A stretch of 64,000 nt of DNA from Rhodoflexus caldus. Lineage in GTDB: Bacteria; Bacteroidota; Bacteroidia; Cytophagales; Thermoflexibacteraceae. This document shows, one piece after another, positions 2,045 through 37,488 of this stretch. The position numbers and the translations under genes were made by a program. Every line of letters starts with the position of its first letter. Positions within the stretch are counted from its first letter, which is position 1. The stretch is taken from positions 62,001 to 126,000 of the forward strand of contig NZ_JAJPRF010000006.1 in assembly GCF_021206925.1 (NCBI RefSeq), given 5' to 3'. A model generated the notes under the pieces. That model searched no databases, had not been told where the DNA came from, and saw nothing but the letters and a program-made list of their open reading frames with translations.

Positions 2045-3274
2045 ATGAACACCAACCTACGCATCCGCCTTTCTGCCATGATGTTCCTCCAATTTTTTGT
2101 ATGGGGGGCATGGTACGGTCAAATGAGCAAGTATATGTTTACCCAACTCAACGCTACGGGCGCACAGGTGGGTAGTGCCTATGCTGCTTTTTCCATTGCA
2201 ATGATTGCCGCTCCTTTTTTCATCGGTATGATTGCCGACCGATATTTTGCCGCCCAAAAGGTATTGGGCGTGCTGAATTTGTTGGGTGCGGGGTTGCTAT
2301 TCTGGCTGACGCAAATCGGTGATGCCGATAATTTCTACTGGGTTATGCTGGCCTATTGCCTCACCTTTGCCCCCACCATTTCATTGGTTAATGCCATTGC
2401 CATGCGGCATATCAGCAACCCCGAGCGCGATTTTCCCGGGCTGCGTGTGCTGGGCACCATCTCGTGGATAGCTGTTACCAACTTGATTGGTTTCTGGGGT
2501 TTAGGCGATAAAGTAGCTATCTTCCAGATTGCAATGGCGGCGGCAGTGGTGCAAGGGCTCTTTGCCTTCCTTTTACCCGACACCCCTCCCAAAGCTACGG
2601 ATGAAGTGAGTTTTGCCAAAATACTCGGTGCAGATGCATTCGTGCTGCTCCGCGACCGTTCTTATCTGATGTTCTTTATTGCTTCCATTCTCATCTGTAT
2701 TCCGCTATCTTTTTACTATGCAATGGCTAACCCCGCACTGACCGATGCAGGCATGACTAATGTGGAAAACAAAATGTCGCTGGGGCAGGCTTCCGAAGTA
2801 CTGTTTATGCTGCTTATCCCGCTGGCGTTTGCGCGGTTGGGAGTTAAATGGATGCTTATGGTGGGGCTGATTGCATGGATTGTGCGGTTCGTATGCTTTG
2901 CTTATGGCGATGCAGGCACGGGCGAATGGCTGTTTCTGGTAGCTATTCTGCTGCACGGCGTTTGTTTTGACTTTTTCTTTGTAACAGGACAGATTTATAC
3001 CGATGCCAAAGCAGGCGATGCCATTAAGTCGCAGGCACAGGGGCTTATTTCGCTGGCCACTTACGGTGTAGGCATGTACATTGGCTCGCTGCTGTCCGGC
3101 AAAATCACCGACCTTTACACCACCAATGGTGTAAAAGACTGGGCAAGCATCTGGCTTGTTCCCGCAGGTATTGCCGCTGTGGTGCTGGTGTTCTTTGTAC
3201 TGCTTTTCAAAGAAAAATCCGACCAAAACCGAACGCGGGTAAGTAAGGGGGCAAGTTTAAGCACACCTACCTAA
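2045..3274 (+). CDS. Nucleoside permease, NupG/XapB-type MFS transporter
   Basis: A 409-residue polytopic inner-membrane protein with about twelve hydrophobic segments, expected to be a proton-linked nucleoside uptake system. The N-terminus (LRIRLSAMMFLQFFVWGAWY) and the GMIADRYF loop after the second helix are typical of the nucleoside:H+ symporter family. The hydrophilic C-terminal tail (from about residue 390) is variable. It follows the MazG-like gene by 3 bases. A second, unrelated nucleoside transporter (CNT type) lies at 6771-8072. Confidence 0.88.
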   Translation: MNTNLRIRLSAMMFLQFFVWGAWYGQMSKYMFTQLNATGAQVGSAYAAFSIAMIAAPFFIGMIADRYFAAQKVLGVLNLLGAGLLFWLTQIGDADNFYWVMLAYCLTFAPTISLVNAIAMRHISNPERDFPGLRVLGTISWIAVTNLIGFWGLGDKVAIFQIAMAAAVVQGLFAFLLPDTPPKATDEVSFAKILGADAFVLLRDRSYLMFFIASILICIPLSFYYAMANPALTDAGMTNVENKMSLGQASEVLFMLLIPLAFARLGVKWMLMVGLIAWIVRFVCFAYGDAGTGEWLFLVAILLHGVCFDFFFVTGQIYTDAKAGDAIKSQAQGLISLATYGVGMYIGSLLSGKITDLYTTNGVKDWASIWLVPAGIAAVVLVFFVLLFKEKSDQNRTRVSKGASLSTPT

Positions 3275-3280
3275 TATTTA

Positions 3281-3339
3281 CCACAAGTGCACAAGAACAC
3301 AAAAATCTTATGTATTTGCTATTTGTGTTCTTATGGTGG
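3281..3339. repeat. Inverted repeat between convergent genes
   Basis: AAGAACACAAA at 3293-3303 pairs perfectly with TTTGTGTTCTT at 3322-3332, with an outer CCAC/GTGG (3281-3284/3336-3339). The loop is 18 bases and no T-run follows, so it may act as an RNA-stabilising hairpin or weak terminator for the permease transcript. The remaining bases to 3440 show nothing else I can name. Confidence 0.6.
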
Positions 3340-3440
3340 ATTAAACGTCAAGTAATGTAGTGGGATATAATTTGCTCGCCTGATTAAATGACGGGGCTAT
3401 GCTGACTGTTGCTCCGAAATCCCCAATCCGATATGCTTAA

Positions 3441-11394: not shown

Positions 11395-11445
11395 GTAATG
11401 AATCCGCCGGTAGGAATATTTAAAAAAAACGCTGTGCCGGCAGTT

Positions 11446-13645: not shown

Positions 13646-14231
13646 AACTGATTACCTGTTTCTTTTGTGCTACGAAGCGGACGATTTCGTCCCAAAATTG
13701 AGCAAATTCTTCACCAAATTCGCGGTAATGGGTTTGCAGCTCTTCGGTAGCGGTTTCAATGCCCGAAGGTCGTGCGATGCGGCGCGCCATACCTTGCAAT
13801 ACGCGCCCGATGACTTCTACTTCGGCATAAGCCGCTAATATATCGCGCTCGGCAGCATATTGCAAAAACAGCCGCGAAGTAGGTGGCAACAACTCATAGT
13901 GCCGATTCATCAGTGCATACATCTCCTTTGAAAAAACGGGTAACGGCACGTCCATGTAACGGTTCCAAGAGGCAGCCAGAAAATGGTCGTAAAAAACATC
14001 TACCAATACGCCTGCATAGTGGCGATAGCGGGGGCGTAGTCGTTGGGCACTCTGTCGCACTAACGGGTGCGTATCGGCGAAATGGTCAATGGCACGATGC
14101 AGCAGAATCCCTGCCTGAACGGAGGGCGCAAATTCCTGCCAGCGATTGCCTTTAACGTGGTCTGCAATAAAGTTCCCGACCAGCAAACCCTCATCGGGGG
14201 CAGCCAGTGCCAAATGTGCCAGAAAATTCAT
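13644..14231 (-). CDS. acpH: Acyl carrier protein phosphodiesterase-like (AcpH/DUF479)
   Basis: A 195-residue helical protein of the AcpH family, which removes the 4'-phosphopantetheine group from acyl carrier protein. The family signature is clear: MNFLAHLALAAPDEGLLVGN at the start, GILLHRAIDHFADTHP near residues 40-55, and GVLVDVFYDHFLA near 74-86, giving the metal-binding His/Asp set. Many Bacteroidota carry such homologues without proof of ACP specificity. It is the last gene of a three-gene coupled operon: its ATG overlaps the stop of the preceding gene by 4 bases. Confidence 0.85.
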   Translation of the reverse strand: MNFLAHLALAAPDEGLLVGNFIADHVKGNRWQEFAPSVQAGILLHRAIDHFADTHPLVRQSAQRLRPRYRHYAGVLVDVFYDHFLAASWNRYMDVPLPVFSKEMYALMNRHYELLPPTSRLFLQYAAERDILAAYAEVEVIGRVLQGMARRIARPSGIETATEELQTHYREFGEEFAQFWDEIVRFVAQKKQVIS

Positions 14232-15340: not shown

Positions 15341-15819
15341 GGTACTTGGAATTGGTAAGATAACTCTCTTCCGTTAATGATAATCGGTGTATTATCGGCA
15401 TAAACGGGTGTGATAACCCATGTACCCGATGTAATGCGGTCGTTGGAAGCCTGTGCCTGATGTACAACCGTGCCGCCTGCCACCCGTGCTGCCGTCATCA
15501 TTCTGCCTGCGTTGCTGTCCTGTGCCACGCCTGTAATAAACATTCGCGCGCCGCTGAACCGAAACCATTTAAACATGATGGGCATTTTGCGGCTGTTCTG
15601 CAACTCTGCCCACTCGCGCTCGCCGGCGGAAAGTTCAAGCGTGAATGAAACCGTCTGGATGCGCACATTGGGAGGCATGGCAGGCAGATTAACTATCTGA
15701 TTCGGCGTACAGGCAATTTGTCGGTCGCCAACGGTCAGCGTTGCCCGCTCTACCCGCATGGTGGCATTGTATCCGCCCCAAAGCGGTACTACCAACCACA
15801 TCCAAAACAAAAACTTCAT
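15337..15819 (-). CDS. Small exported protein of unknown function
   Basis: A 160-residue protein with an N-terminal hydrophobic stretch (MKFLFWMWLVVPLWGG) that looks like a signal peptide. The mature part is beta-rich with the words VERATLTVGDRQIA, TVSFTLELSAGE and GTWVITPVYADNTPIIING. The general flavour recalls small beta-domains in Bacteroidota envelope proteins such as the GldM C-terminus, but that is only an impression. ATG at 15819 is preferred over an in-frame TTG two codons upstream. It is the first gene of the coupled operon leading to the AcpH-like gene. Confidence 0.68.
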   Translation of the reverse strand: MKFLFWMWLVVPLWGGYNATMRVERATLTVGDRQIACTPNQIVNLPAMPPNVRIQTVSFTLELSAGEREWAELQNSRKMPIMFKWFRFSGARMFITGVAQDSNAGRMMTAARVAGGTVVHQAQASNDRITSGTWVITPVYADNTPIIINGRELSYQFQVP

Positions 15820-23672: not shown

Positions 23673-23789
23673 GAATATTTCGGTTATTGTATCGGTTTGC
23701 AGAATTTATTTACTGCCATGATTGACTAAGTAATTGAATAGTTTAAAGGGAACTTGTCAAAATCCGCTCACAGGGTCTAACGACCGCTG

Positions 23790-24017
23790 TCAGGTTTGCG
23801 TATGCCTCTGTGTATCACATAGTTCCAACTCAGGGATGCAAAACTCTACCCAGCCAATTGCCTCATTCAACCCTTTAATGAAAGCAAGTTTTTCTTCTAA
23901 TGTACCAAACTCATATTCCTTTACAAAAAGGCGCTTTTCTTCCTCGGTTAAGGATTGATTGCTGTATGCTTTAATGACTTGCTCCTTTCCAAATATTACG
24001 CGAACAATATGGTTCAT
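23790..24017 (-). CDS. Small hypothetical partner of the HNH nuclease
   Basis: A 75-residue protein whose ATG overlaps the HNH gene stop by 4 bases (ATGA), so it is translated with it. It is acidic, with two predicted helices (SLTEEEKRLFVKEYEFGTLE and EEKLAFIKGLNEAIGWVEF) and no motif I recognise. Its position directly after a nuclease suggests an immunity, specificity or regulatory role, but that is inference. The region is AT-richer than the surroundings. Confidence 0.6.
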   Translation of the reverse strand: MNHIVRVIFGKEQVIKAYSNQSLTEEEKRLFVKEYEFGTLEEKLAFIKGLNEAIGWVEFCIPELELCDTQRHTQT

Positions 24018-24778
24018 TTCCTGAAAATATTTTGTTGATGATAATCCAGAAATTCTTTTGAAGGTAAAAATTTATCAGGAAGATTTATTTTTTGGTTTTC
24101 ATATTTCATAAAAAAATCTATAATAGCCTTTTCATGTGCAAAAATCTCCAACTCCCTCGAAATCTTAACGGTAAAATCAGGTGTGATTGTAATAAATCCT
24201 CTGTCAAACGCCTTATCGTGAATAGCGTTCAGACAAAGTCCATTTCTTGGATTTAATCTATGTTTGGTATTTTTTGACCAAGGGATTATATGACTTGCCA
24301 CTAAAAAATCTGGTATTGACAAACCAGTTATGCAGCATTTGAAATAATACGACGAAAGAACGGCTGAGCGAAAAAAACTTTGATTAACTCTCTGTTTTAC
24401 AACTGCTTCTCTTTCAACACCTTCTCTTATATCTTCTACCTCAATTTCCGAAGTTTCCTCAATTGGTTTATGAGCAAATTTTGAAATTAACAGTTCGCTT
24501 TCGTAAGCAAGTTTTTCCCAATTTCCGTTAAACTCTTCCCATACCTCCTCCTCTATTTTGCTGCCATGACTCAATCCTACAATCCCTTGCTTTTTCAATT
24601 CAGGGTCAAGCCTGCCAAAATTTCCAACTTTCATATTTAAAGCCGATGGGCTTCGTCCGATAATATTTGCATATTTGATTATCATGGGATTTGTTTTACT
24701 ACTTGCCTTAAAGGGTATTTTACAATACACATTAAACGCAATGATTGTCTCCTCTTTTGTCCAATTATTTCTTGACAT
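24014..24778 (-). CDS. HNH endonuclease, restriction type (HNH_2)
   Basis: A 254-residue nuclease. The C-terminal half holds an HNH_2-type site: CCITGLSIPDFLVASHIIPW with the first histidine, then RLNPRNGLCLNAIHDKAFDRG with the Asn and second His. The N-terminal 70 residues (NNWTKEETIIAFNVYCKIPF) form a separate helical domain found in related putative restriction enzymes. It lies 6 bases after a truncated Vsr gene and overlaps a small downstream gene. No DNA methyltransferase is present in the window, so it may be a modification-dependent enzyme or a remnant. Confidence 0.85.
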   Translation of the reverse strand: MSRNNWTKEETIIAFNVYCKIPFKASSKTNPMIIKYANIIGRSPSALNMKVGNFGRLDPELKKQGIVGLSHGSKIEEEVWEEFNGNWEKLAYESELLISKFAHKPIEETSEIEVEDIREGVEREAVVKQRVNQSFFRSAVLSSYYFKCCITGLSIPDFLVASHIIPWSKNTKHRLNPRNGLCLNAIHDKAFDRGFITITPDFTVKISRELEIFAHEKAIIDFFMKYENQKINLPDKFLPSKEFLDYHQQNIFRK

Positions 24779-24784
24779 TTTATA

Positions 24785-25018
24785 TCAATTTATGTGTTGC
24801 GGCACAACCTTTTTTTGCAAAGAATAAATAATTGCAAAAACAGCAATTTTATATTTTTTAAAAGTCAAATCGGGTTTTCCGTAAACGGTTTTGTCATTTT
24901 TTCTGTACCTGTATCCCCGCTTCCAAAGTTCTTTTGCAAGTAAAGTTTCAATTTTTGAGCCTTTACTTTTCACTGCTTGCATGTTTTTTCTTCTCTGCTC
25001 TTGGGTCAGTTTGTCCAT
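24785..25018 (-). pseudogene. Truncated very-short-patch repair endonuclease (Vsr)
   Basis: The first about 60 residues are typical Vsr (MDKLTQEQRRKNMQAVKSKG, then RGYRYRKNDKTVYGKPDLTF), including the metal-binding aspartate. After KYKIAVF the family continues VDGxFWHG with catalytic histidines; here it reads AIIYSLQKKV and stops at 77 residues, about half normal length. Vsr nicks T:G mismatches made by deamination at cytosine-5 methylation sites and usually accompanies a dcm-type methyltransferase, absent here. It is probably non-functional. Confidence 0.8.
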
Positions 25019-25038
25019 ATCGGGCAATTGGCAAATCT

Positions 25039-25144
25039 TTTATATACAAATCTGACAGGTTTTAGCGACCTGTCAGATTTTAATCAACTGTTTTTCAGCA
25101 ATTTACACAAAAAACTTTTCGCAAACCACTTGCGCTTTTGTATA
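25039..25144 (-). repeat. Palindromic dispersed element, copy A
   Basis: Reverse-complement copy of the element also at 32498-32582 and 37381-37488. Contains a perfect 13-base stem, AAATCTGACAGGT (25048-25060) with ACCTGTCAGATTT (25068-25080), around a 7-base loop, and the conserved words GCGCAAGTGGTTTGC and TGAAAAACAGTT on the minus strand. It separates the Vsr remnant from purD. Confidence 0.82.
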
Positions 25145-25218
25145 ACACACGGATACAGGCACATGATGCGTTTTTTCACTGACCTTTCACAATGCCGCAT
25201 CCGAATTATACAACCTGC

Positions 25219-26496
25219 CTATGCCATCAAATCGCGGCCGATGTCGCGGCGGTAGTATTTGCCCTCGTAGGTAATGGTTTCGGCGGCACGGTAGGAGCGT
25301 TGCAGTGCCTCCTGCATGGAGTCGGCAAGGGCTGTGAGAGCAATGACACGCCCGCCTGCCGTTACCACCGTTTCGCCTTGCTGCTTAGTGCCTGCATGGA
25401 AAGCCGTTACCTCGCCGATGCGGTCTAACCCACTGATAGGTTTGCCTTTTTCAAAGGCCTCAGGATAGCCTCCCGATACCAGCATAACCGTTACGGCGGT
25501 GCGGCTGTCTATCTCAAAGGCAGCTTGTGCCAAGCGACGGCGCGAAGCGGCATCCAGCAAGGTCAGCAAATCGGTCTTGATGCGCGGAATAACCACCTCT
25601 GTTTCGGGGTCGCCCATGCGCACATTGTATTCAATCACATAAGGCTCGCCGCCTACGTTCATAAGCCCGATGAAAATAAAACCGACATAGTCAATGCCTT
25701 CTTTTTGCAAGCCTGCCAATGTAGGTTTTACAATTCGTTCTTCCACTTTTTTCAGAAACTCCTCGTTGGCAAAAGGGACGGGGGAAACTGCCCCCATGCC
25801 GCCTGTATTAAGGCCGGTATCGCCTTCGCCAATGCGTTTGTAGTCTTTGGCGGCAGGCAGCAGGCAATAATCTTTCCCGTCGGTTAGCACAAACACGGAC
25901 AGCTCGATGCCCCGCAAAAACTGTTCAACCACTACCGTTGCGCTTGCCGCACCAAATTTGGCCTCGGCAATCATTTCGCGAAGGGCAGCCTGCGCTTCTG
26001 CCAAGTCATTGATAATCAGCACGCCTTTGCCTGCTGCCAGCCCGTCGGCTTTGAGCACGTAAGGGGCTTGCAGGGTTGCAAGGTAGGCAATGCCTTCTTC
26101 CAAATTGCTGCTGTCAAAACTGCGATAGGCGGCGGTTGGTATGCCGTGGCGCATCATGAACTGCTTGGCAAAATCCTTGCTGCCTTCCAGCGCTGCGCCC
26201 GCCTTGTCGGGGCCTACCACGCGCACATGATTCAGGGTGGGGTGTTGGCGCATAAAGTCGGTAAAGCCGGCTACCAAAGGTGCTTCCGGGCCGACAACGA
26301 CAAGTTCTATTTCATTAGCAGCGATAAAATCGGCTAATCTGTCAAAGTCTGTGGCTTCAATGGCAACATTTTGAGCAACCTGCGAAGTGCCCGCATTGCC
26401 GGGGGCAATAAAGAGTGCCGTACAAAGCGGACTTTGTGCTATTTTCCAAGCAAACGCATGTTCGCGCCCGCCACTGCCTAAGATGAGTATTTTCAT
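25219..26496 (-). CDS. purD: Phosphoribosylamine-glycine ligase
   Basis: Second step of purine synthesis: ATP-dependent joining of glycine to 5-phosphoribosylamine. A 425-residue ATP-grasp enzyme. The start MKILILGSGGREHAFAWKI and GPEAPLVAG (about 65-73) are diagnostic, as are KADGLAAGKGV and EYNVRMGDPE near the ATP-binding loop and metal site. ATG at 26496 gives the canonical N-terminus; an upstream in-frame extension is spurious. No other pur genes lie adjacent. Confidence 0.96.
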   Translation of the reverse strand: MKILILGSGGREHAFAWKIAQSPLCTALFIAPGNAGTSQVAQNVAIEATDFDRLADFIAANEIELVVVGPEAPLVAGFTDFMRQHPTLNHVRVVGPDKAGAALEGSKDFAKQFMMRHGIPTAAYRSFDSSNLEEGIAYLATLQAPYVLKADGLAAGKGVLIINDLAEAQAALREMIAEAKFGAASATVVVEQFLRGIELSVFVLTDGKDYCLLPAAKDYKRIGEGDTGLNTGGMGAVSPVPFANEEFLKKVEERIVKPTLAGLQKEGIDYVGFIFIGLMNVGGEPYVIEYNVRMGDPETEVVIPRIKTDLLTLLDAASRRRLAQAAFEIDSRTAVTVMLVSGGYPEAFEKGKPISGLDRIGEVTAFHAGTKQQGETVVTAGGRVIALTALADSMQEALQRSYRAAETITYEGKYYRRDIGRDLMA

Positions 26497-26514
26497 GGTA
26501 TGAGAACGTTGCGA

Positions 26515-26522
26515 CAAAATTA
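26515..26522 (-). promoter_or_regulatory. Putative -7 promoter box TAATTTTG for purD
   Basis: Perfect TA-N2-TTTG, 18 bases before the purD ATG, inside what would be coding sequence if the longer start were used, which supports the shorter start. Confidence 0.42.
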
Positions 26523-26542
26523 GCATTTACTTACACAAAGCC

Positions 26543-26550
26543 TAAATTTG
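26543..26550 (+). promoter_or_regulatory. Putative -7 promoter box TAAATTTG for ltaE
   Basis: Perfect TA-N2-TTTG, 26 bases before the threonine aldolase ATG, in the divergent gap with purD. Confidence 0.42.
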
Positions 26551-26576
26551 CCGCCTGTCCACCATTTTGAATAGCC

Positions 26577-27593
26577 ATGACGATAGACCTCCGCAGCGAT
26601 ACCGTTACTCTGCCTACCGCGGCCATGAAAGCGGCCATGTTCAACGCTCCGCTGGGCGATGATGTTTACGGGGAAGATGCCTCCGTAAACGCCCTGCAAC
26701 AATATGCCGCCGAGCTTTTTGGCATGGAAGCCGCCTTGTTTTGTCCTTCGGGAACAATGACCAACCAAATTGCCCTGAAACTGCACCTTCAACCGGGCGA
26801 TGAGGTTATTTGCGATAAACTGGCGCATATTTACAACTACGAAGGCGGCGGTATTGCCCTGAATGCCCATGCCTCCGTGCGGCTGATTGAGTCCCTAAAC
26901 GGAAAAATGACTGCCGAGCAAATAGCCGCCAACATTAACCCCGACGATATTCACTACCCCGTTACAAGGTTAGTTGCCATAGAAAACACCGTAAACAAAG
27001 GCGGAGGAATTTGCTACAAAGTTGCTGACGTTGAGCCTATTGCGAAGCTGTGCAGAGAAAAAGGGCTGCCGATGCACTTAGACGGCGCACGATTGTTTAA
27101 TGCGTTAGTAGCTAACAAGGAGCAGCCCCGCCAATACGGCCAATTGTTTGATACCGTTTCTATTTGTCTTTCCAAAGGTTTGGGCGCACCCGTGGGTTCG
27201 TTGTTGCTGGGTAGCCGTGCGCATATCCGCAAGGCACTGCGCATTCGCAAAGCCATGGGCGGCGGCATGAGGCAGGCAGGTATGCTGGCTGCTGCGGGCT
27301 TGTATGCACTGCAAAATCATGTAGAAAGACTGGCAGAAGACCACAGAAGAGCCGCAATTATTGCCCGACACTTAACAGCGTGCAACTACGTTGCCGAAAT
27401 ATTGCCCGTAGAAACCAATATCGTTGTATTCAAGTTACAACCGGGCACTTATGAACCCGCTCAGTTCAGCGAAATACTCAAAAGCAAAGGAATTTTAGCC
27501 AACCCGTTTGCCGGAGGTATTCGCTTCGTAACGCACCTCGATTTCAATGATGAGCAACTGGACACACTCCTGCAAGTCTTAAAAGTTTTGTAA
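26577..27593 (+). CDS. ltaE: Low-specificity L-threonine aldolase
   Basis: PLP enzyme cleaving threonine/allo-threonine to glycine and acetaldehyde. 338 residues, fold type I. The N-terminal [11 protein letters not shown] and [12 protein letters not shown], the mid DGARLFNA (PLP-binding Asp) and [13 protein letters not shown] (Schiff-base lysine) are all present. It is divergent from purD, which consumes glycine; a metabolic link through glycine is attractive but inferred only from adjacency. Confidence 0.94.
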
Positions 27594-27683
27594 GTTCATG
27601 TAAGATTTATGCTGTATTTGTAAAGCTAAATAGTTATTTTTAGCGGGATTTTTTTAAACACAACCGCAAGCGCATATATACGG

Positions 27684-30077
27684 ATGGCGGAGCGAAAGAA
27701 TAACGGTACTCGGCAGTTAGCAAACCTATCCAAAGAGGAATTAATAGGATTAATTAAACAGCAGCAGCAAACGCATGACAATCAGGTAAGCACCTTGCGG
27801 CTACTGATTGAGAATGCGTCGGATATGGTACTGTGCATAGACCGTTCTTTGCGAGTGGTAGCTTACAACAAACCCTATGCTGAACATATAAAAAAACTAT
27901 ATGATAAAGAAATTTGCGAAGGTGGGCTGATTAGAGATATTTTGCCTCAGGCTTCATTTTTATACTGGCAGGAATATTTTGAGAAATGTACGGTTAAAGC
28001 ACAACGCATAGAAGTTGTGCATCACTTGCTGCGGGATGGTAAGCCGTACATACTGTCGGTGATAATGAATCCTTACATGGATATATCCGGAGAAGTCGGA
28101 GGCGCTATGATTTATTTGAAAGACATCACCGAGCAAGTGCTGACACAGCAGAAACTCACCCGCAACGAAGCGCGGTTTCGGGCGATTATGGCCAATACCT
28201 CCGACATTATTGCCGTAATTGACGAAGCAGGTGAAACCAAATTTATCACGCCTTCATTTTTCAGAATTACAGGGTACGACGAGCAAGACAGCAGCATCAG
28301 AAACGTACTGACACTTGTGCACCCCGAAGACCTGCCGCTGGCGCAATCGGAAATCAAACGCCTGCTTACAGGGGATGAGAGCAATCAGCCGCTGGAAATA
28401 CGCATCCGCAAACAAGACGGAAGCTATATCTACTTGGAAATTATCGCCCAAAACAAGTTGAGCGATGAGAATGTCAGGGGGCTTATTATTAACGGCCGAA
28501 ATATTACCAACCGCAAAAAAGCAGAAACCGAACTGATTCGCGCGCGACAAGTAGCCGAAGAAGCTGTTAAAGCCAAAGACAACTTTCTCTCCGTTATGAG
28601 CCATGAAATCCGCACGCCGCTCAGCGCGGTTATCGGCATGGCTAACCTTTTATTGCAAAACCGCCCGGGCGAGCATCAAATTGAGAACCTGCGCGCCCTG
28701 CAATCATCGGCAGACCATTTGCTGTCGCTCATCAACGATATTTTGGACTTTTCTAAGCTACAGGCCGGCAAACTTGTATTTGAATCGTCTCCGTTCAATA
28801 TCAGGGATTTAATAACCAACATCAAAGACATTCACATGCTGTCGGCTATGGAGAAAGGCCTGAAACTTTCTTACGACATAGCAACGGGCATTCCCGAATG
28901 GCTCACGGGAGATAAAATACGCCTGAATCAGATTTTGCACAATTTGGTGAGCAATGCCATTAAATTTACCGAAAGAGGCAGTGTTCGCATATCGGTATCT
29001 GTTAAGGAGCGCTCCGATGACCGCGTCTTGCTGCAAATCAGCGTATCCGATACGGGTATCGGTATCCCTGCCGACAAGATAGAGCACATATTTGAGTTGT
29101 TCACCCAAATTCAAAACGAAACCACGCGCAGATACGGCGGTACGGGGCTTGGCTTGGCCATTACCAGATATTTGGTTGAGATGCAAGGGGGCAATATTTA
29201 TGTGGAAAGCGGTGTGCAACGAGGTTCGGTTTTCACCTTTACCATTCCTTATAATATTGTTCAAGAACCGCCACAATTCCGCCAGACACAGGCCGCCATC
29301 AGCGAGCTGTTAAAAGACAAGCCGGTTCTTTACATAGAAGACATTGCGGTAAATCAGCTGCTGATGCAAAACCTTGCCAAAATGTGGCAGATAAACCTTA
29401 CCGCCGTTTCCTCCGGCAAAGAGGCTTTGGAAAAAATAGACGATATGCGCAGTCAGGGGCATTATTTTGACCTGATTATCACCGATATTTTGATGCCCGT
29501 AATGGACGGCTATCAGGTGGCAGAAAACATCAGAAAGCACCCTGATATTCGGGTTGCCCATACGCCTATTATAGCCCTGACAGCCGATGTGTCGGCCGCC
29601 GTTGAGAAAAAAGCCAAAGATGCGGGTATCAATTTCTGCCTGACCAAACCCATTGACCAGAAGATTTTGTATCAACATATGGCGGCTATTCTGGCAGAAA
29701 AACAAACCGATTATGTGTATGCCCCCGAGCACGAGCCACTCAACTCCGATATACATCAACCCGATTTTGTTGCTGATAATCAGGCGTTTATTGAATTTTT
29801 ACAATTAACAAATAAGCAGTTGAAGCACTCTTCGGAGCAATTGAGCCGCGCTATTACGGAAGCTGATGCGGAATTGTACCAAAAAGAGGCTCATGTGCTG
29901 AAAGGTATTCTTGCTTACATCCATCAGGAACGACTGATATCACAGTTGCAGGAAGTAAATCAAGTACTCACGAGTGCAGGTGCAGAAGAGCGCATGATGA
30001 CAGCCATGAAAGTCAGCAACTTGCTGGAAGCATTACACAGGAAAATAGCCGCTCAAATAGCTGAATTACAGACCTGA
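27684..30077 (+). CDS. PAS-PAS hybrid histidine kinase with receiver and HPt-like domains
   Basis: A 797-residue soluble sensor. Order: short coiled start, PAS 1 (about 35-150), PAS 2 with PAC (about 160-280), HisKA with His307 (MSHEIRTPLS), HATPase (about 400-515, with GTGLGLAIT), receiver with Asp601 (IITDILMPVMDGY), then a C-terminal helical HPt-like domain with His737 in KEAHVLKGIL. It thus contains all steps of a His-Asp-His relay but no output domain and no membrane segment, so it senses a cytosolic signal. No cognate regulator is adjacent; the single-domain regulator at 46468 is far away. Confidence 0.92.
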   Translation: MAERKNNGTRQLANLSKEELIGLIKQQQQTHDNQVSTLRLLIENASDMVLCIDRSLRVVAYNKPYAEHIKKLYDKEICEGGLIRDILPQASFLYWQEYFEKCTVKAQRIEVVHHLLRDGKPYILSVIMNPYMDISGEVGGAMIYLKDITEQVLTQQKLTRNEARFRAIMANTSDIIAVIDEAGETKFITPSFFRITGYDEQDSSIRNVLTLVHPEDLPLAQSEIKRLLTGDESNQPLEIRIRKQDGSYIYLEIIAQNKLSDENVRGLIINGRNITNRKKAETELIRARQVAEEAVKAKDNFLSVMSHEIRTPLSAVIGMANLLLQNRPGEHQIENLRALQSSADHLLSLINDILDFSKLQAGKLVFESSPFNIRDLITNIKDIHMLSAMEKGLKLSYDIATGIPEWLTGDKIRLNQILHNLVSNAIKFTERGSVRISVSVKERSDDRVLLQISVSDTGIGIPADKIEHIFELFTQIQNETTRRYGGTGLGLAITRYLVEMQGGNIYVESGVQRGSVFTFTIPYNIVQEPPQFRQTQAAISELLKDKPVLYIEDIAVNQLLMQNLAKMWQINLTAVSSGKEALEKIDDMRSQGHYFDLIITDILMPVMDGYQVAENIRKHPDIRVAHTPIIALTADVSAAVEKKAKDAGINFCLTKPIDQKILYQHMAAILAEKQTDYVYAPEHEPLNSDIHQPDFVADNQAFIEFLQLTNKQLKHSSEQLSRAITEADAELYQKEAHVLKGILAYIHQERLISQLQEVNQVLTSAGAEERMMTAMKVSNLLEALHRKIAAQIAELQT

Positions 30078-30207
30078 TTTGACCAATTTTCCGACAAAAT
30101 GTCATATCAAGCCTGCGGATTGAATTTTGTTCATGTAACGACGACCGGCAGATTTACGCAAACAAACCGGCGCTTTCATCGTTAATTATCTGACTTATCG
30201 CATCGTC

Positions 30208-31506
30208 ATGAATAAAATTCTTTCGTTCATACTGATTGCCACTGTTTTGCTGGCAATAGACTGGTATGTTTTTCAGGCTGTCCGCATCGTTTGGGAAGAC
30301 TCGCAGGCACAAACCCGCCGCATGATTTACGGCACTTACTGGACGCTCACACTGCTCACCATCGGCATTTTGGGTATCTATCCGTACCTGCCCGCATCGG
30401 CTGCCATGCTTACCGCCCGCCGTTTTGTAATGGTATGGGGCTTTATGTTTTACTTTTCCAAACTGTTTGCGGTATTGTTTATTGCCGTAGATGATTTGCT
30501 GCGGCTTGGTCAGTGGATTTATGCGCAAATAGCTTCATGGTTTCCTCAAAGGCCGCCTAAACCGGCTGTGGCAGAGTTGCCCGCCGAGCTACTGCCCGAA
30601 CCCGCGCCCAAAGGTATTACTCGCTCCGAGTTTTTGATGCAGGCAGGTTTGGTTGCTGCTGCCGTACCGCTGGCAACCATGAGTTTTGGCATTGTTTCAG
30701 GCGCACATGACTACCGTATCCGCCGCGTGCGCGTGGCACTGCCCAACCTGCCCAAGGCGTTTGACGGCATCCGCATCGGACAGTTGTCCGATATTCACTC
30801 AGGCAGTTTCTTTAATCGCGTGGCCGTTCAAGGCGGTGTAGATATGCTGCTCAACGAAAAACCCGACGTGGTTTTCTTCACGGGTGATTTGGTAAACGAC
30901 AGCGCCGACGAAATGCGCGATTATTTTGACATTTTCAAAAAAGTAACCGCGCCAATGGGCGTTTATTCGGTATTAGGCAACCACGACTACGGCGACTATC
31001 GCCAGTGGCCAAGCCCACAGGCAAAGTTCCACAACTTGCAAACGCTCAAACAAACCCATGCCGACATGGGATGGCGGCTGCTGATGAATGAACACATTGA
31101 CTTGCAAGCCGACGGCGAAAAAATAGCCGTGATAGGTATTGAAAACTGGGGTGCTAAGGGCAATTTCCCAAAATACGGCAGAATGAAACAAGCATATGCC
31201 GGAACGGAAGATGCCCCCGTTAAACTGCTGCTTTCACACGACCCCAGCCACTGGGATGCAGAAGTGCGCCGACAGTACAAAGATGTAGACATCATGTTTG
31301 CAGGGCATACGCACGGTATGCAGTTTGGCATTGAAGTCGGTTCGTTCAAATGGAGCCCTGTACAGTACATGTACGAACAGTGGGCAGGGTTGTATCAAAA
31401 AGAAAATCAGTACTTATACGTCAATCGCGGATTTGGCTACATAGGCTTTCCGGGGCGCATCGGCATTTTGCCCGAAATTACCATTATGGAGTTGGTGCGT
31501 GCATAG
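30208..31506 (+). CDS. Membrane-anchored metallophosphoesterase
   Basis: A 432-residue protein. Three hydrophobic segments at about 5-25, 48-66 and 75-98 are followed by a linker and a fourth hydrophobic stretch near 150-170 preceded by TRSEF, which looks like an internal anchor. The calcineurin-like domain starts near 185 with all metal motifs: QLSDIHSG, FTGDLVND, LGNHDYGD, SHDPSHWD and AGHTHGMQFG. It resembles YaeI/YkuE-type membrane phosphoesterases that act on lipid or envelope substrates; the substrate is not determinable here. Confidence 0.9.
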   Translation: MNKILSFILIATVLLAIDWYVFQAVRIVWEDSQAQTRRMIYGTYWTLTLLTIGILGIYPYLPASAAMLTARRFVMVWGFMFYFSKLFAVLFIAVDDLLRLGQWIYAQIASWFPQRPPKPAVAELPAELLPEPAPKGITRSEFLMQAGLVAAAVPLATMSFGIVSGAHDYRIRRVRVALPNLPKAFDGIRIGQLSDIHSGSFFNRVAVQGGVDMLLNEKPDVVFFTGDLVNDSADEMRDYFDIFKKVTAPMGVYSVLGNHDYGDYRQWPSPQAKFHNLQTLKQTHADMGWRLLMNEHIDLQADGEKIAVIGIENWGAKGNFPKYGRMKQAYAGTEDAPVKLLLSHDPSHWDAEVRRQYKDVDIMFAGHTHGMQFGIEVGSFKWSPVQYMYEQWAGLYQKENQYLYVNRGFGYIGFPGRIGILPEITIMELVRA

Positions 31507-31562
31507 GTTTGCAGAAAATGATTAATTTCATTAACTATACAGCGTTAAATTGCTGAACCAAT

Positions 31563-32480
31563 ATGCCGCTACCCGACGAATATTTGCATTATCCGCATCG
31601 CCGCCATGCGATGGATCATGAGCGTTATCGCTGGTCTAATCTTTTTGAGCGTCAGCCTGTTACTTGGCCTGACGGCGCGCACGTGGCTTTGTGGGTTACA
31701 GTAGTATCCGAATTTTTTCCGCTGAACCAAGAAGGTAAGCCCTTTAAAGCCCCCGGAGGGATGGTAACAGCCTACCCTGATTTCAGGCACTATTCTTCAC
31801 GCGACTACGGCAACCGCGTAGGTATTTTCCGCCTGTTCCGATTGTTTAAGCAGTTGGGCATTAAAGCAAGCGTTGCCATGAACGCCGCAGTAGCAGAACG
31901 CTACCCCGTGCTGGCGCGCGAGGTGGTGGCCAATGGTTATGAAATCATTTGCCACGGCTACGACATGGACACTATCCACCACAGCGGCATGAGTGAAGCC
32001 GATGAACGGGCAATTATCCGCAAATCCAAAAATATAATCTCCGACATAACGGGCGTTGCGCCGCAGGGGTGGCTTTCACCCGCTTCGGCTGAGTCTTTCC
32101 TCACGCCCGATTTGGTGCAGGAAGAGGGCTTCAGCTACCTTTGCGATTGGGCTAATGACGATATGCCTTATGCTTTCCAAACACGTCAGGGGAGCATTTG
32201 GGCGATGCCCTATTCGGAAGAGATCAGCGACCGACAGATTATTTTCGGTTATCACCATACCGAAGCGCAGTTTGCCGAACAGGTGAAAGACCAGTTTGAC
32301 ACCCTTTTTACCGAAAGCAAACAATACGGCGGGCGTATTTTGTCGCTTGTGCTATATCCATACATCAGCGGGCTGCCTTATCGCATTCATGCGGTGGAGG
32401 AAGCCCTGCGCTACATCGTACAACGCCCGGGTGTGTGGAGCGCCTTAGGCAGCGATATAATCGCTCATTTGCGCCGCTAA
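31563..32480 (+). CDS. Polysaccharide deacetylase-family protein (PuuE/allantoinase-like)
   Basis: A 305-residue NodB-homology protein. The closing HGYDMDTIHH metal motif, ITGVAPQGWLSPA (the family R/S-rich loop) and the C-terminal YPYISGLPYRIHAVEEALRY region match the PuuE/allantoinase-like branch rather than classical chitin deacetylases. No signal peptide is visible, so a cytosolic role on a small amide substrate is more likely than cell-wall deacetylation. It stands alone, 56 bases after the metallophosphoesterase on the same strand. Confidence 0.82.
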   Translation: MPLPDEYLHYPHRRHAMDHERYRWSNLFERQPVTWPDGAHVALWVTVVSEFFPLNQEGKPFKAPGGMVTAYPDFRHYSSRDYGNRVGIFRLFRLFKQLGIKASVAMNAAVAERYPVLAREVVANGYEIICHGYDMDTIHHSGMSEADERAIIRKSKNIISDITGVAPQGWLSPASAESFLTPDLVQEEGFSYLCDWANDDMPYAFQTRQGSIWAMPYSEEISDRQIIFGYHHTEAQFAEQVKDQFDTLFTESKQYGGRILSLVLYPYISGLPYRIHAVEEALRYIVQRPGVWSALGSDIIAHLRR

Positions 32481-32497
32481 CCATTGGCAACGAGCAG

Positions 32498-32582
32498 TTA
32501 TACGAAAGCGCAAGTGGTTTGCAAAAATGCTTTTTCTAAGTCGTTGAAAAACAACTGTTTAAGCCTGACAGGTTTGTGTATA
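32498..32582 (+). repeat. Palindromic dispersed element, copy B (half hairpin)
   Basis: Shares GCGCAAGTGGTTTGC, GTTGAAAAACAACTGTTTAA and CCTGACAGGTTTGTGTATA with copies A and C, but the second hairpin arm is missing, as if the loop and one arm were deleted. Confidence 0.78.
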
Positions 32583-32601
32583 CCAAAAACACCTGCATAA
32601 A

Positions 32602-32633
32602 AAACCCCGACGAGCTGCAATTCGTCGGGGTTT
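32602..32633. terminator. Intrinsic terminator, bidirectional
   Basis: AAACCCCGACGA (32602-32613) pairs with TCGTCGGGGTTT (32622-32633) around 8 bases. It serves the deacetylase (plus) and the convergent M61 peptidase (minus). Confidence 0.88.
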
Positions 32634-32659
32634 CTTGTTATTGCCGAAGCAATTACAGA

Positions 32660-34468
32660 CTATCGCTTGCCCGTAAACTTGCGGAAAACGGTTTGCTGTT
32701 CGGCAGTCGGGTTGCTGACAGGGACAAGCGTATATTGTGCCGTGCCGGCGGTGCCTACTTTTACCGTCATTTCGCGGATGAGGCCATCGCGTGCAAGTGT
32801 GATTTTTACGGCATCACCTATTTTGCGACCGGCAATGTAGGCGTTCATGGCCGCTGTATTGCTCATGCGGAAGCCATCTATGGCGATAATTTCATCGTTT
32901 ACGTTAATGCCGTCGTTATAGGCGGGTGCATCTTTGCGGGTTACTTTTACAATGATGCGGTTATTTTCGTCGGCAGCAGTCATGCCAAGGCTTGGCGTGT
33001 TGTCGGGAGTTACGTTCAGGCGCAAGCCCGCATAGGCAAGGTATTTTTCGTAATTGGTTGGCTTTGTACCAAATACGTAGTCATTAAAAATGTCATCCAG
33101 ATTTTTTCCGGCGGCTGCTTCGCAGGCCTTTTTCAGTTCGGCTTCGGTAAAACCGCGATTGGCTTTTTTATAGGTGTCGGCATAGAGGGCACGCATCACA
33201 TCGTCCAAACTTTTCTGCCCTTTGCTGTTGTGAAGAATTTCCAAGTCAATGAGCATGGCTACTCTTGCTCCCGAGCCGTAGTAGGAAATGCTGCTGTTGA
33301 TGGAGTTTTCGTTGCGGCGGTAGTACTTAATCCACGCATCAAAACTGGCTTCACCTACGGACTGCACCTTGCTGCCCGGCGAATTTTCATGTTCGTTGAT
33401 ATTGGCAGCCACATCGCGCAGGTAAGAATTTTCGTCAATCAGACCGGCGCGGCGCACGATGAAATCGTCGTAGTAAGACGTAAAACCTTCTGCCATCCAG
33501 AGTTGGCGGGTGTAGTTTTCGTTGTCATAATCAAACGGGCCGAGCACATCGGGGCGCAGACGTTTTACGTTCCACAGGTGGAAATATTCATGGGCAGCCA
33601 GTCGCAAAAAGCCCAGATAGCCGCTTTGCGTCTGATAAGCGTTGCGGTTCACTGCCAAAACGGTTGAATTCAAGTGTTCCAGACCGCCGGTAGCACCGCC
33701 GCCGAGGTTGTGTACAATAAAAATGTACTCTTTGCAGGGCAATTCGCCAAAAATTTCTACCGCTGCTTCAATAATGGCTTTTGTGTCGCGAACAAGGCGT
33801 TCTTCGTCGTATTGTGCTACGCCGTACATGGCATATTGGTGAGGTACGCCCGCGGCAGTGAAGGAGATAATTTTCTGATTGCCGATTTCAATCGGAGCAT
33901 CTGCCAGTTCGTCGTAGTTAGGAGCGCGCAGTGTGTACTTGTCGCCGTTTACTTTTTCTAAGGTGCAGGAAATTTCTTTCCACTCTTTGTAAGGCTTAAT
34001 GCGGAGCGTAGAAGGCAGATTTACAAAGCCGTCGGGGAACATGAACACGCCCGAAGGGCTAATGAAAGCGTGCGAATCATCTACAAAACTGGTGCGAACA
34101 GATTGCTCAAAAGCATACACTTTGTAGCTGAATACCACACCTTTGGCTGTGCCCAATTGCACGCGCCAGTTGTTTTTATTGATTTTTTGGAATTTGAGGG
34201 CATTGCCGTTGAGGTCTTTGGCAACTTCTCCTTCCACGTTTTTGGCAAATTCGCGCACCAAATAAGAACCGGGCGCCCAAACAGGCATTTTAAAGTCCAC
34301 ATAGCCGCGTTTTTGGACGTTGGCAGGCAGATTTTCAAAACGAATTTCCACATCCACATAGTGCGTATGCGGGGCATCCATGCTGAGTTGGTAAGAAAGC
34401 TGCTGTGCCCAAACGCTGCCGGTCAGCCATAGGGCAGACAGTAGCACAAAGAGTTTTGTTCTCATCAT
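32660..34468 (-). CDS. M61-family peptidase with PDZ domain
   Basis: A 602-residue exported metallopeptidase (glycyl-aminopeptidase family). A signal peptide runs MMRTKLFVLLSALWLTGSVW then AQ. The N-terminal beta domain is followed by the zinc motif HEYFH (His293, Glu294, His297) with the downstream glutamate in MAEGFTSYYDD, and by a C-terminal PDZ domain containing GINVNDEIIAIDGF. The upstream GGGATGGLEHLNS is also a family sign. ATG at 34468 is chosen because it starts the signal peptide and fits the promoter at 34496-34525. Confidence 0.93.
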   Translation of the reverse strand: MMRTKLFVLLSALWLTGSVWAQQLSYQLSMDAPHTHYVDVEIRFENLPANVQKRGYVDFKMPVWAPGSYLVREFAKNVEGEVAKDLNGNALKFQKINKNNWRVQLGTAKGVVFSYKVYAFEQSVRTSFVDDSHAFISPSGVFMFPDGFVNLPSTLRIKPYKEWKEISCTLEKVNGDKYTLRAPNYDELADAPIEIGNQKIISFTAAGVPHQYAMYGVAQYDEERLVRDTKAIIEAAVEIFGELPCKEYIFIVHNLGGGATGGLEHLNSTVLAVNRNAYQTQSGYLGFLRLAAHEYFHLWNVKRLRPDVLGPFDYDNENYTRQLWMAEGFTSYYDDFIVRRAGLIDENSYLRDVAANINEHENSPGSKVQSVGEASFDAWIKYYRRNENSINSSISYYGSGARVAMLIDLEILHNSKGQKSLDDVMRALYADTYKKANRGFTEAELKKACEAAAGKNLDDIFNDYVFGTKPTNYEKYLAYAGLRLNVTPDNTPSLGMTAADENNRIIVKVTRKDAPAYNDGINVNDEIIAIDGFRMSNTAAMNAYIAGRKIGDAVKITLARDGLIREMTVKVGTAGTAQYTLVPVSNPTAEQQTVFRKFTGKR

Positions 34469-34495
34469 CGTATTCAATTGATTTTGCAATAATGG

Positions 34496-34525
34496 CAAAA
34501 GTAAGCCTATCGCACGCTAAATCAA
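34496..34525 (-). promoter_or_regulatory. Promoter of the M61 peptidase gene
   Basis: TTG (complement of CAA at 34523-34525), 19-base spacer, then TACTTTTG (complement of 34496-34503). Both elements and spacing match the Bacteroidota consensus TTG-N17-23-TA-N2-TTTG; the start codon is 28 bases downstream. Confidence 0.7.
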
Positions 34526-34679
34526 CGGCTTGCACGGGTGATTTTGAAAACCTGCGCATATTTCCCGTTGCAGCCGAGATTTCAACCCCGAAAATGAAAG
34601 GCGGCATCTTTTGACGCACTACCGACAGCAATGGTCTGTTATGTCGTACAGAAAGGCACGGATAGGCAACCATGTGCTA

Positions 34680-35732
34680 TCAACTGTTCAGAATTTTATC
34701 TACTTCTGCCAGTACGGAAGCACTGCCTAAGTCCTGAATGCTGTTCAGGTCGGCGGTGAGTTGCTTTAGCTGATGGAAGGTTGCAATTTGCAGGTCGTGG
34801 TTGCTTTGCGCCTCTTCGCCGCGCTGATTTTGTGCCGCCAAAGATTTGAGTTCGGCCCCTGCCTGTGCAAGTTTTTTCTGCGCCAGCAACTCCTGTTTCA
34901 TGCCTGACAGTTTCTCCGCAATTTGTCGGTAGGCTTCTATGCGTTTATTAACGGTTGTCAGGTTTTGCTGTGCCTGCAACAGCAACTGCGCCCCTTGCTG
35001 AATGGCTTGTTCGTTAAGCCCGGGTTGGTAGTCATTGTCCAGAAAATAGGTCGCGCCATCGTTGGGATTGGACTGATGCTTAAACAGTACAACCGCTTCG
35101 GGATGCTCTTTGAGGTACAGTTCGCCTCTCGGTACATACAGCGCCTTAAAGCCGTCAAGCAGGTTTTGGGTCAGCAATTCTTTGAGTTGCTCGTCTTTGC
35201 GGATGTATTGCCTGTTTTCTGCAATCAGTGCATCGTATTGCGAAGCATCGGGCAGCATGTTTGCCCCCGCAAGTTGCGTTTGCAGCACATACACAAGGCT
35301 TTCAAAGTCGGAAAGACCGAATTTGGCCGCAGGAATTTCAATGCGCTGCCCCTTGCCGTCGGTAACGGTCAGTATGGCCTTGTTATTAGCAGTGAACGAT
35401 TGCACTTGCTGCAAGGGAATTTTTTGCACTTTTCCGTCGGCTAATTGCTGCAACTCTGCCTTGCTGATTTCAGCCAGTGCAATTTGTTGCGTCTTACCCG
35501 CCGACTGCAAGGCCAGCCGCTCTTCGTTGAGCAGTACCGTCTGTACAGGTTTTGAAAAATATTGCACGGCACCTACCCCCATACCAATCAGCCCAACCGC
35601 TCCCAGCACAAAAGCAAGCACGCCGCCAAGCATCCAGCCCGCTGCGGCAAGCACAAGCCCGCCAAGCAAATAGCTGAGTGCCACATTTTTAGACGGCGTT
35701 TTTTCGGGAAGCACATAAATTTCGTTTTCCAT
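34680..35732 (-). CDS. Uncharacterised membrane protein with coiled-coil tail
   Basis: A 350-residue protein. After a short cytosolic start, two hydrophobic helices (about 18-38 and 40-58) form a hairpin; residues 60-135 alternate strands like a PH-type domain (TVLLNEERLALQ, then LTVTDGKGQRIEIPA). The remaining part is rich in Gln, Leu and Ala with long predicted helices (residues 150-185 and 240-320), probably a coiled coil, and ends SVLAEVDKILNS. No enzyme motif is seen and I do not know the family. It is divergent from the sodium symporter. Confidence 0.7.
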   Translation of the reverse strand: MENEIYVLPEKTPSKNVALSYLLGGLVLAAAGWMLGGVLAFVLGAVGLIGMGVGAVQYFSKPVQTVLLNEERLALQSAGKTQQIALAEISKAELQQLADGKVQKIPLQQVQSFTANNKAILTVTDGKGQRIEIPAAKFGLSDFESLVYVLQTQLAGANMLPDASQYDALIAENRQYIRKDEQLKELLTQNLLDGFKALYVPRGELYLKEHPEAVVLFKHQSNPNDGATYFLDNDYQPGLNEQAIQQGAQLLLQAQQNLTTVNKRIEAYRQIAEKLSGMKQELLAQKKLAQAGAELKSLAAQNQRGEEAQSNHDLQIATFHQLKQLTADLNSIQDLGSASVLAEVDKILNS

Positions 35733-35859
35733 TTTTGTAATTTGTTGTTGAAAGTTTCACCTATCGGATGGAGCACTAACATCTGTTACAGGCTGTGAGT
35801 CCTATAGCAATGTTCCCCGACGATTCAAATTATACATTTTTCCTTGATTTTTCTGTGTT

Positions 35860-37230
35860 ATGCTGCTCGGCTTCATTATTCTTTACCTGCTCTTTACCAT
35901 TTTGATTGGTTATTGGGCTTCGCGAAAAGTTACTACCACCGAAGATTTTCTGGTGGCAGGCAAGCAATTGCCAATGGCTGTTACGGCGGCAGCACTTTTT
36001 GCTACATGGTTCGGTTCGGAAACGCTGATGGGGGCTTCTTCCAAATTTATTGAGAAAGGAGCAATGGGCATTATTGAAGACCCTATCGGGGCTGCTCTGT
36101 GCTTTATCTTGGTCGGTTTTTTTTACGCCAAACCCCTCTACAAACTTAATATACTAACAATCAACGATTTTTTCGGGATTCGCTTTGGCAGAAAGGCAGA
36201 GTTGATTTCTGCCATTTTTATGGTGCCGTCCTATTTCGGATGGATTGCCGCGCAGTTGGTGGCATTGGGGCTGCTGCTGCAAACCATCACCGGCCTGCCG
36301 ATGATGTGGGGTATCTGGCTCTCCATGATAGTCGTATTGTTCTACACCTACATCGGCGGCATGTGGGCGGTTTCCGTTACCGACTTTCTGCAAACTTTTA
36401 TCATTATTGTCGGGCTGTTTTTTCTGATGAGCCGTTTGTGGACAGATGTAGGCGGCTGGGAAGCCATCAATCAAAATACACCAAAGGGCTTTTTCAACAT
36501 GACACCTGAGTTTTCTTGGTTGGGCATCACCCACTACATCGCCGCACTGATTACGTTGGGGCTGGGGTCTATCCCTTCGCAAGACCTTTTCCAGCGCATC
36601 ATGTCGTCTAAGTCTGCCAAAGCTGCTGTCAATGCGTCTTTCCTAAGCGGGTTCATGTATCTTTCCATTGGCATTATGCCACTGATTATCAGTCTTTGCG
36701 GTAGCATTTTGTACCCTGACATCATGAAAGGCGACACGCAGTTGGCGCTGCCGACAATGGTTATGCAGCATACAGAACTCTGGTTGCAAATTCTTTTTAT
36801 GGGTGCGTTGCTGTCGGCTATTCTGAGCACTACGAGTGGGGCAATTCTGGCTCCCGCAGCCGTTTTGGGTGAAAATATTCTCAAACCGCTTTTTAAAGGT
36901 ACAAAACTCTCCGACCGTCAGGTACTTCACCTGATGCGCGGCTCTGTTGTTGCAGTAGCGGTGCTTTCTGCCGTAATGGCCAACATGAGCGCAAGCATCT
37001 ACGAATTGGCAGCTATGGCATCTGCTTTTACATTAGTTTCACTTTTTGCACCACTAACGGCAGGATTATATTGGAAAAAAGCAAATTCATCGGGTGCTAT
37101 TGCCTCCATGGTTAGCGGTATGTTCGTATGGCTGCTTTGCATTCTGCTGGAAACAGAAACTCCACCACTGATTTACGCCACATTAATCAGTATTTTTAGT
37201 ATGATAGCAGGCAGCTATATCAAAAAATAA
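35860..37230 (+). CDS. Sodium:solute symporter family protein
   Basis: A 456-residue SSS-family inner-membrane transporter with about twelve to thirteen hydrophobic segments. Family signs: the first helix followed by ASRKVTTTEDFLVAGKQLP, then ATWFGSETLMGASSKF (sodium-site helix), the AQLVALGLLLQTITGLP segment, and GGMWAVSVTDFLQTFIIIVG. The substrate (for instance proline, a sugar or a carboxylate) cannot be told from sequence. It is a single gene: divergent from the gene before it and followed by a 339-base gap containing a dispersed repeat. Confidence 0.9.
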   Translation: MLLGFIILYLLFTILIGYWASRKVTTTEDFLVAGKQLPMAVTAAALFATWFGSETLMGASSKFIEKGAMGIIEDPIGAALCFILVGFFYAKPLYKLNILTINDFFGIRFGRKAELISAIFMVPSYFGWIAAQLVALGLLLQTITGLPMMWGIWLSMIVVLFYTYIGGMWAVSVTDFLQTFIIIVGLFFLMSRLWTDVGGWEAINQNTPKGFFNMTPEFSWLGITHYIAALITLGLGSIPSQDLFQRIMSSKSAKAAVNASFLSGFMYLSIGIMPLIISLCGSILYPDIMKGDTQLALPTMVMQHTELWLQILFMGALLSAILSTTSGAILAPAAVLGENILKPLFKGTKLSDRQVLHLMRGSVVAVAVLSAVMANMSASIYELAAMASAFTLVSLFAPLTAGLYWKKANSSGAIASMVSGMFVWLLCILLETETPPLIYATLISIFSMIAGSYIKK

Positions 37231-37301
37231 TTTCAATAAAAATTCAAAATTTATTAACAGTATAAGTATATTCGCTATAGATAATTATTAATGGCAAATG
37301 T

Positions 37302-37370
37302 ATGAGAAACCACTTAATCGTCTATTTTGCAGCAATAATGGTGATTTTCTCAACAGCTTTTGTCTTATAA
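37302..37370 (+). CDS. Possible 22-residue hydrophobic peptide or gene relic
   Basis: ATG at 37302 encodes 22 residues that look like a signal peptide alone (MRNHLIVYFAAIMVIFSTAF, then VL) and stop 10 bases before repeat copy C. It could be the beginning of a lost secreted-protein gene, cut when the repeat arrived, or chance. No mature region follows in any frame. Confidence 0.25.
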   Translation: MRNHLIVYFAAIMVIFSTAFVL

Positions 37371-37380
37371 AGCAGGCGAT

Positions 37381-37488
37381 GATACACAAGCACAAGTGAT
37401 TTGCAAGAAATAATTTTTTTTGTAAAATATTGAAAAACAGTTATTTAAACCTAACAGGTTTCTGATACCTGTCAGGTTTATGTATAAT
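37381..37488 (+). repeat. Palindromic dispersed element, copy C
   Basis: AAACCTAACAGGT (37447-37459) pairs with ACCTGTCAGGTTT (37467-37479) with one mismatch around a 7-base loop; upstream ACAAGTGATTTGCAAGAAAT and TGAAAAACAGTTATTTAA match copies A and B. It is the only copy on this strand with a full hairpin. The rest of 37231-37569 holds the short peptide frame and a terminator. Confidence 0.82.

Follow-up and report, generated by a model that had tools for sequence, protein, structure and literature searches.

Within a 64,000-nucleotide stretch of the Rhodoflexus caldus genome (contig NZ_JAJPRF010000006.1, positions 62,001 to 126,000 of the forward strand), hereafter the window, lie three copies of a short hairpin-bearing repeat that are members of a family of miniature inverted-repeat transposable elements (MITEs) of about 103 bp, too short for a transposase gene. 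The original prediction had described three look-alike copies, one on the minus and two on the plus strand, sharing several sequence words, and direct reading together with alignment bore this out, with the ends shifted by no more than 2 bases. Copy A (25041..25144, minus strand) is a complete element that runs from its TATAC end at 25144 to the opposite end at 25041 and has both arms of the hairpin, at about 25048-25081; its IS630-like end (25120..25144, minus strand) reads TATACAAAAGCGCAAGTGGTTTGCG with a small subterminal palindrome, CGCAA-gtggt-TTGCG. Copy B (32499..32582, plus strand) keeps both ends and is without the loop and the second hairpin arm, so that a single arm is read, as had been predicted. 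Copy C (37381..37486, plus strand) is complete but aged, a G replacing the first base of TATAC, and carries a large hairpin near its 3' end (37447..37479, plus strand), seen in its own fold and in the consensus hairpin of 24 copies. The words GCAAGTGRTTTGC and TGAAAAACA and a CCTRACAGG-type arm are common to all three.

A covariance model built from 24 copies of the same genome gives 118.7 bits for copy A, which (as L038) is inside the training set, and 97.2 and 86.2 bits for copies C and B, which are outside it. In RNA folding against shuffled sequences, copies A and C reach z values of -4.9 and -4.0, while copy B, at 0.18, folds no better than shuffles, as expected from its lost arm. In copy B CCTGACAGGTTT is followed directly by GTGTATA, and the missing piece sits between two CAGGTTT words in complete copies, which suggests that the arm was lost by slippage between these repeats. 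A scan of the window for the single word GCAAGTGGTTTGCAA, allowing 3 mismatches, found 6 matches against 4.4 expected, which is chance level; the evidence is therefore the whole element and not single words. As for the neighbourhood, copy A shares the interval 23746-25225 with a truncated vsr gene (24785-25027) and a gene for an HNH_2 endonuclease (24014-24778). The truncation had been called in advance and is apparent from the alignment, in which residues 3-63 align with positions 1-61 of the 74 in Vsr. Just before copy C, the stretch 37230-37376, in which the possible signal-peptide relic lies, is also missing from the congener G003.

The three copies of the original prediction are a local sample only. 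At least 117 covariance-model matches of at least 54.8 bits occur in the 3.96-Mb genome (a hand count of the list), and at least 151 reach E <= 0.1; both counts are lower bounds, 150 of 3,762 first-look candidates having been scored. The analyses below rest on 113 of the 117, leaving out C6:13705 and C25:15726, the second members of tandem pairs, as well as C4:206551 and C19:66215. Conservation across the 113 copies starts sharply at TATAC and stops at GTATA, and the consensus of 24 copies reads TTATACAAAAGCGCAAGTGGTTTGC(G)AAAAAT..TTTGTGTAAATT.TTGAAAAACA..TATTTAAACCTGACAGGTTTT.AAAACCTGTCAGGTTTGTGTATAA. Median identity to the consensus is 0.80 over the 113 copies, and much of the family is therefore old. 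An exact 21-base pattern of the element found one matching record in a scan of named genomes, and the 64-kb window has no Rfam match at the gathering score. The two tandem pairs are arranged head to tail, at L055 (G000:C25:15622-15836, members at 15622 and 15726) and L005 (G000:C6:13705-13920, members at 13705 and 13805); at the site of the latter, G003 has just part of one copy. Near a contig end, the copy at L043 (G000:C20:57601-57715) is interrupted by GAGGCTGTCCAAAAAGT, which we take to resemble the end of another insertion sequence (IS).

G003 allows a site-by-site comparison with a close relative. Long aligned pieces of the two genomes are 88-95% identical in one comparison and 86-95% in another, with their order kept. 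Sites were classed by author-set cut-offs (shared at a score of at least 66, partial at 50-64, absent at no more than 35); for random 200-base pieces of G003 the median score was 23 and the 95th percentile 33. A copy was taken as comparable when both flanks fell inside the G003 stretches examined, which held for 45 of the 113; 30 of these were shared, 3 partial and 12 absent. In the reverse query with 44 G003 copies, 36 were comparable (27 shared, 1 partial, 8 absent) and 8 had no comparable site; among the 27, L151:8687 and L165:10990 show gaps of 1.6-2.0 kb, so that a different copy may have been matched there. Copies A, B and C are all absent from G003: copy A along with the whole stretch 23746-25225, in place of which G003 has some 90 bases; copy B alone, with 101 bp between alignable flanks against 19 bp in G003; and copy C along with roughly 100-150 bp upstream. 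There is insertion polymorphism between these close relatives. A genome-wide count and a comparison of orthologous sites, both put forward with the original prediction, come out in favour of mobile DNA, with more than 100 copies at sites that are not precisely conserved.

The ends of the element are inverted, TATACAnAA facing TTTGTGTATA, and the flanks of the 113 copies show a weak T before and a weak A after, TA prevailing at both edges. Flank re-pairing over the same copies (2-10 bp, among the rows shown) gave no sign of a target duplication of at least 3 bp, the best z among 576 offsets and lengths being 3.5. Inverted flanks, which had looked possible by eye, did not exceed z 3.5 in the 113 copies either. 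Duplication of TA was tested on pairs filled in G003 and empty in R. caldus, where 6 of the 8 absent sites were displayed and 5 were clean. In these five the empty allele has one TA and the filled allele has TA on both sides, except for a TG on one side in L156. At L153:9096 the filled allele reads GATGA-TA-[TAC...GTA]-TA-GCAG and the empty one GATGA-TA-GCAG; at L148:9300, CCTCATA-TA-[TAC...GTA]-TA-AAAACG and CCTCACA-TA-AAAACCG; at L188:15052, where a further insert of over 100 bases parts the hairpin arms of the copy, GTCATT-TA-[..]-TA-ATCAGG and GTCATT-TA-ATCAGG; at L156:6171, TTCTTC-TG-[..]-TA-ACTTA and TTCTTC-TA-ACTTA; and at L154:3653, with worn ends, GTTTAAT-TA-[..]-TA-ACACG and GTTTAAT-TA-ACACG. 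The TA at the insertion site is duplicated. In the window itself, 3248-3387 and 11395-11443 are the orthologous sites of two copies found only in G003, the first with a single TA and the second untidy.

R. caldus has one candidate partner of the IS630 type. The sole DDE_3 match found in its genome is a 337-amino-acid (aa) open reading frame (ORF), typed as IS630 family (165.5 bits, cut-off 100), in which HTH_33 and HTH_29 are both over cut-off. The IS630-type element that carries it measures 1,098 bp (G000:C8:133489-134586), has TA on both sides and is bounded by an inverted pair, TATACACAATAGC... (L232:809) and ...GCGCTTGTGTATA (L232:1906), framing the ORF. Read inwards, the right end (TATACACAAGCGCAAGAGCTTTGCGATTAA) agrees with the first 30 bases of the family at 25 positions and the left end at 20; no other site in the 2.1-kb locus matches those 30 bases as well, and the two lie on either side of the ORF. 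In a background of 110,718 positions drawn from G001 and G002, the highest score was 20, reached twice; the right end is therefore exceptional, and the left end, level with the background maximum, gains its weight from its place. Nine bases, TATACACAA, are common to both IS ends and to the 3' end of the family. Very probably a separate IS630-type transposon moves the element, and the end matches suggest which transposase it may be. When named genomes were scanned with this transposase, 34 pattern matches came up and none was confirmed, records of the window itself or very near it being possibly excluded.

A quite different enzyme had also been considered. The original prediction spoke of a miniature non-autonomous or REP-like (repetitive extragenic palindromic) family; many copies, inverted ends and the TA pattern uphold the first half of that description, and the second half falls. 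Spread by a Y1 transposase, either a REP-associated tyrosine transposase (RAYT) or an IS200-like enzyme acting on single-stranded hairpins, would agree with the strong hairpin, the high copy number, the lack of any target duplication of at least 3 bp and the presence of one Y1 gene in the genome. However, this gene, the sole Y1 match, has no element match within 1.5 kb, and as a candidate RAYT it is rejected, scoring 73 bits as an IS200/IS605 transposase (cut-off 55) and 20.7 with the REP-associated model (cut-off 80). REP elements with RAYTs are defined by a conserved GTAG-type tetranucleotide ahead of the hairpin; no such tetranucleotide precedes the large hairpin in the consensus, the sequence examined for it, which there reads TATTTAAACC. 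Further, the ends match an IS630-type element and the five empty and filled pairs fit TA duplication, which Y1 transposition is not known to produce. Taken together, a Y1 origin is extremely improbable.

Where the copies lie relative to genes raises another alternative, that the host keeps them at gene ends as functional RNAs or as terminators of transcription. When genes are taken as ORFs of 110 aa or longer (greedy calling by a simple ORF caller, not annotation), 109 of 113 copies are intergenic. Between convergent genes there are 57 of these 109 against 22.5 expected, and between divergent genes 4 against 33.4, the expectations being based on the intergenic length that each class takes up in G003 stretches lacking strong copies. 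The same trend is seen at thresholds of 80 and 150 aa and for 41 G003 copies of at least 55 bits. In a separate comparison, four stretches of the R. caldus genome (L212, L213, L214 and L220) served as intergenic controls. As to the earlier claim that the copies have no open frame, mechanically called ORFs contain 15 of 113 copies at 80 aa or more, 4 at 110 and 1 at 150. The convergent excess and the stable hairpin would speak for a role at gene ends, as would two-sided changes, at least one of which is found at 7 of 14 consensus pairs among 24 paralogous copies; such changes would also be compatible with a hairpin that acts before insertion or in the course of it.

On the other hand, the copies are present or absent between congeners, and in tandem gaps 28 copies lie with the direction of the genes and 20 against it (p 0.31), which is no orientation preference. 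In the 25 shared pairs that scored highest, out of 30, differences amount to 0.204 and 0.185 in the hairpin arms and to 0.190 in the middle; the 115 hairpin pair changes comprise 71 that break pairing, 25 one-sided ones that leave the bases paired, 10 compensatory ones and 9 others. The hairpin is thus not preserved at orthologous sites in these 25 pairs and changes as fast as the middle, which argues against a functional RNA. Terminator use is likewise not supported: the terminator scan listed none of the large hairpins of copies A, B and C, no T-run follows them and their tails are not T-rich. A host-kept RNA or terminator is therefore very improbable. The convergent excess would fit removal of harmful insertions, as proposed for pneumococcal repeats (PMC3049150), and a convergent bias of this kind is described there for the pneumococcal element RUP.

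In all likelihood the family is an IS630-type MITE, inserted at TA by the transposase of the resident IS or of a lost relative. An IS630-type DDE transposase, whether from the 1,098-bp element or from such a relative, would recognise the TATACAnAA ends, and probably the small subterminal palindrome as well, and insert the element at a TA that becomes duplicated. Copies persist mostly downstream of genes, chiefly between convergent ones, presumably because selection removes insertions into promoters and genes. Once inserted they decay without visible constraint, and slippage between its repeats could strip the large hairpin of an arm, which would account for copy B. The element thus appears to work like one moved in trans at TA by an IS630 transposase.

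Several observations weigh against this account. A 2-bp duplication is beyond statistical proof from a single genome, and of the eight G003-filled sites three gave an untidy junction (L188:7948) or were not displayed (L162:12598 and L204:2408), one element end also being worn in each of L154 and L156. Among the sites filled only in R. caldus, L102, L126, L076, L112, L124 and L049 are untidy, as is L110:1977 with its short anchors, and G003 retains part of a copy at L005, L087 and L035; some absences may therefore be deletions, and deletion is also at work among these sites. On one side the likeness to the IS spans about 30 bp, on the other 9 bp, and nothing in the IS corresponds to the middle or to the large hairpin. 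Lastly, G003, with 95 model matches at E <= 0.01 (96 scored), gave no transposase match at E <= 0.001; the partner may therefore be a lost relative, and in G003 it may be lost, unassembled or different. A version of the IS630 account in which the true partner is lost or unassembled and the present IS merely a cousin is possible, if rather unlikely: the many G003 copies without a transposase match, the nine bases alone common to the IS and the family's 3' end and the age of much of the family speak for it, and the 25 of 30 agreement of the right IS end with the family's 5' end speaks against it.

G001, of the same genus, has no model match at E <= 0.01. G002 has 11, the best of 59.3 bits, and four loci read there are without a clear TATAC end. 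In G008, 6 of 8 loci read have a 5' end of the same kind, with TATAC mutated in two of the six, and so has 1 of 2 loci in G035; in these seven loci TATACCCAA or TATACACAA leads into ATTAGTTT, the middle is AT-rich, and a large hairpin stands ahead of the other end. In nine aligned ends, chosen to start at TATAC, both A of CAA are invariant too. G004 has a relative of the transposase (37-42% identity, one stop in frame) with TATACTCAA at both ends. Model counts for G004, G027 and G002 are not counts of element copies, since the loci read are mostly hairpins without TATAC ends. Such hairpins, resembling that of the element, occur at L254, L257, L262, L266 and L273 (G027) and at L256 and L275 (G004), and several have long paired flanks like a gene-end terminator. 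It is conceivable, though we consider it unlikely, that one MITE lineage kept a fixed build across genera of the order even as its IS630 partners drifted apart or were lost. This build would consist of an IS630-like end with a small palindrome, a middle rich in A and T, a single large hairpin whose sequence varies, and a TATAC-type end. In that case the large hairpin would have a working role in transposition, or in shielding from host transcription, and would be under selection while the element spreads and no longer once it is inserted.

A possible second interspersed repeat, with the core TTACTTGACGTTTAATC, was seen at 3339-3355 of the window and at G003:C3:262277, C3:525223 and C3:94558. 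At up to 2 mismatches the core has 2 matches in R. caldus and 6 in G003 (0 and 1 for the reversed pattern), one of them within a stretch of about 113 bp that is present in G003 and absent at the R. caldus site.

MITEs of the IS630 and Tc1-mariner group, such as the Stowaway type in eukaryotes, are a known kind, of which this family is a further member. Like them it is short and has IS630/Tc1-mariner transposon ends and a TA duplication; unlike them its inverted ends span only about 9 bp and its internal part is unrelated to the IS. With REP elements and bacterial interspersed mosaic elements (BIMEs) moved by RAYTs it shares hairpin repeats, a mostly intergenic location and occasional head-to-tail pairs, whereas the enzyme class is another and the ends and TA do not fit. 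The closest known system, going by its published descriptions and in build only, is RUP with IS630-Spn1 of Streptococcus pneumoniae: RUP measures 107 bp, occurs in 108 to 110 copies, has 9-bp inverted ends like those of the resident IS630-Spn1, targets TA and is overrepresented between convergent genes (PMC2229807, PMC3049150). A preference for IS elements is also reported for RUP. The present family differs in belonging to another phylum, in having one large hairpin near one end and in its setting, one IS copy having been found in its own genome and none in G003. Because the likeness rests on build, it is filed as an IS630-type MITE and not as RUP. SPRITE, a terminator-like repeat of pneumococcus, is likewise a hairpin repeat enriched near gene 3' ends; its 18-bp duplex is followed by a long U-rich tract (PMC3049150), whereas the large hairpins of copies A, B and C have no following T-run. 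No title or abstract opening in the literature searched describes IS630 MITEs in this group or the hairpin word. Overall, the analysis explains a conspicuous repeat of this lineage, and it presents a RUP-like arrangement in a distant phylum, with a tiny element, an IS630 helper, a TA target and a refuge between convergent genes, together with pairs of filled and empty sites from two species, only one of which has a detectable helper.

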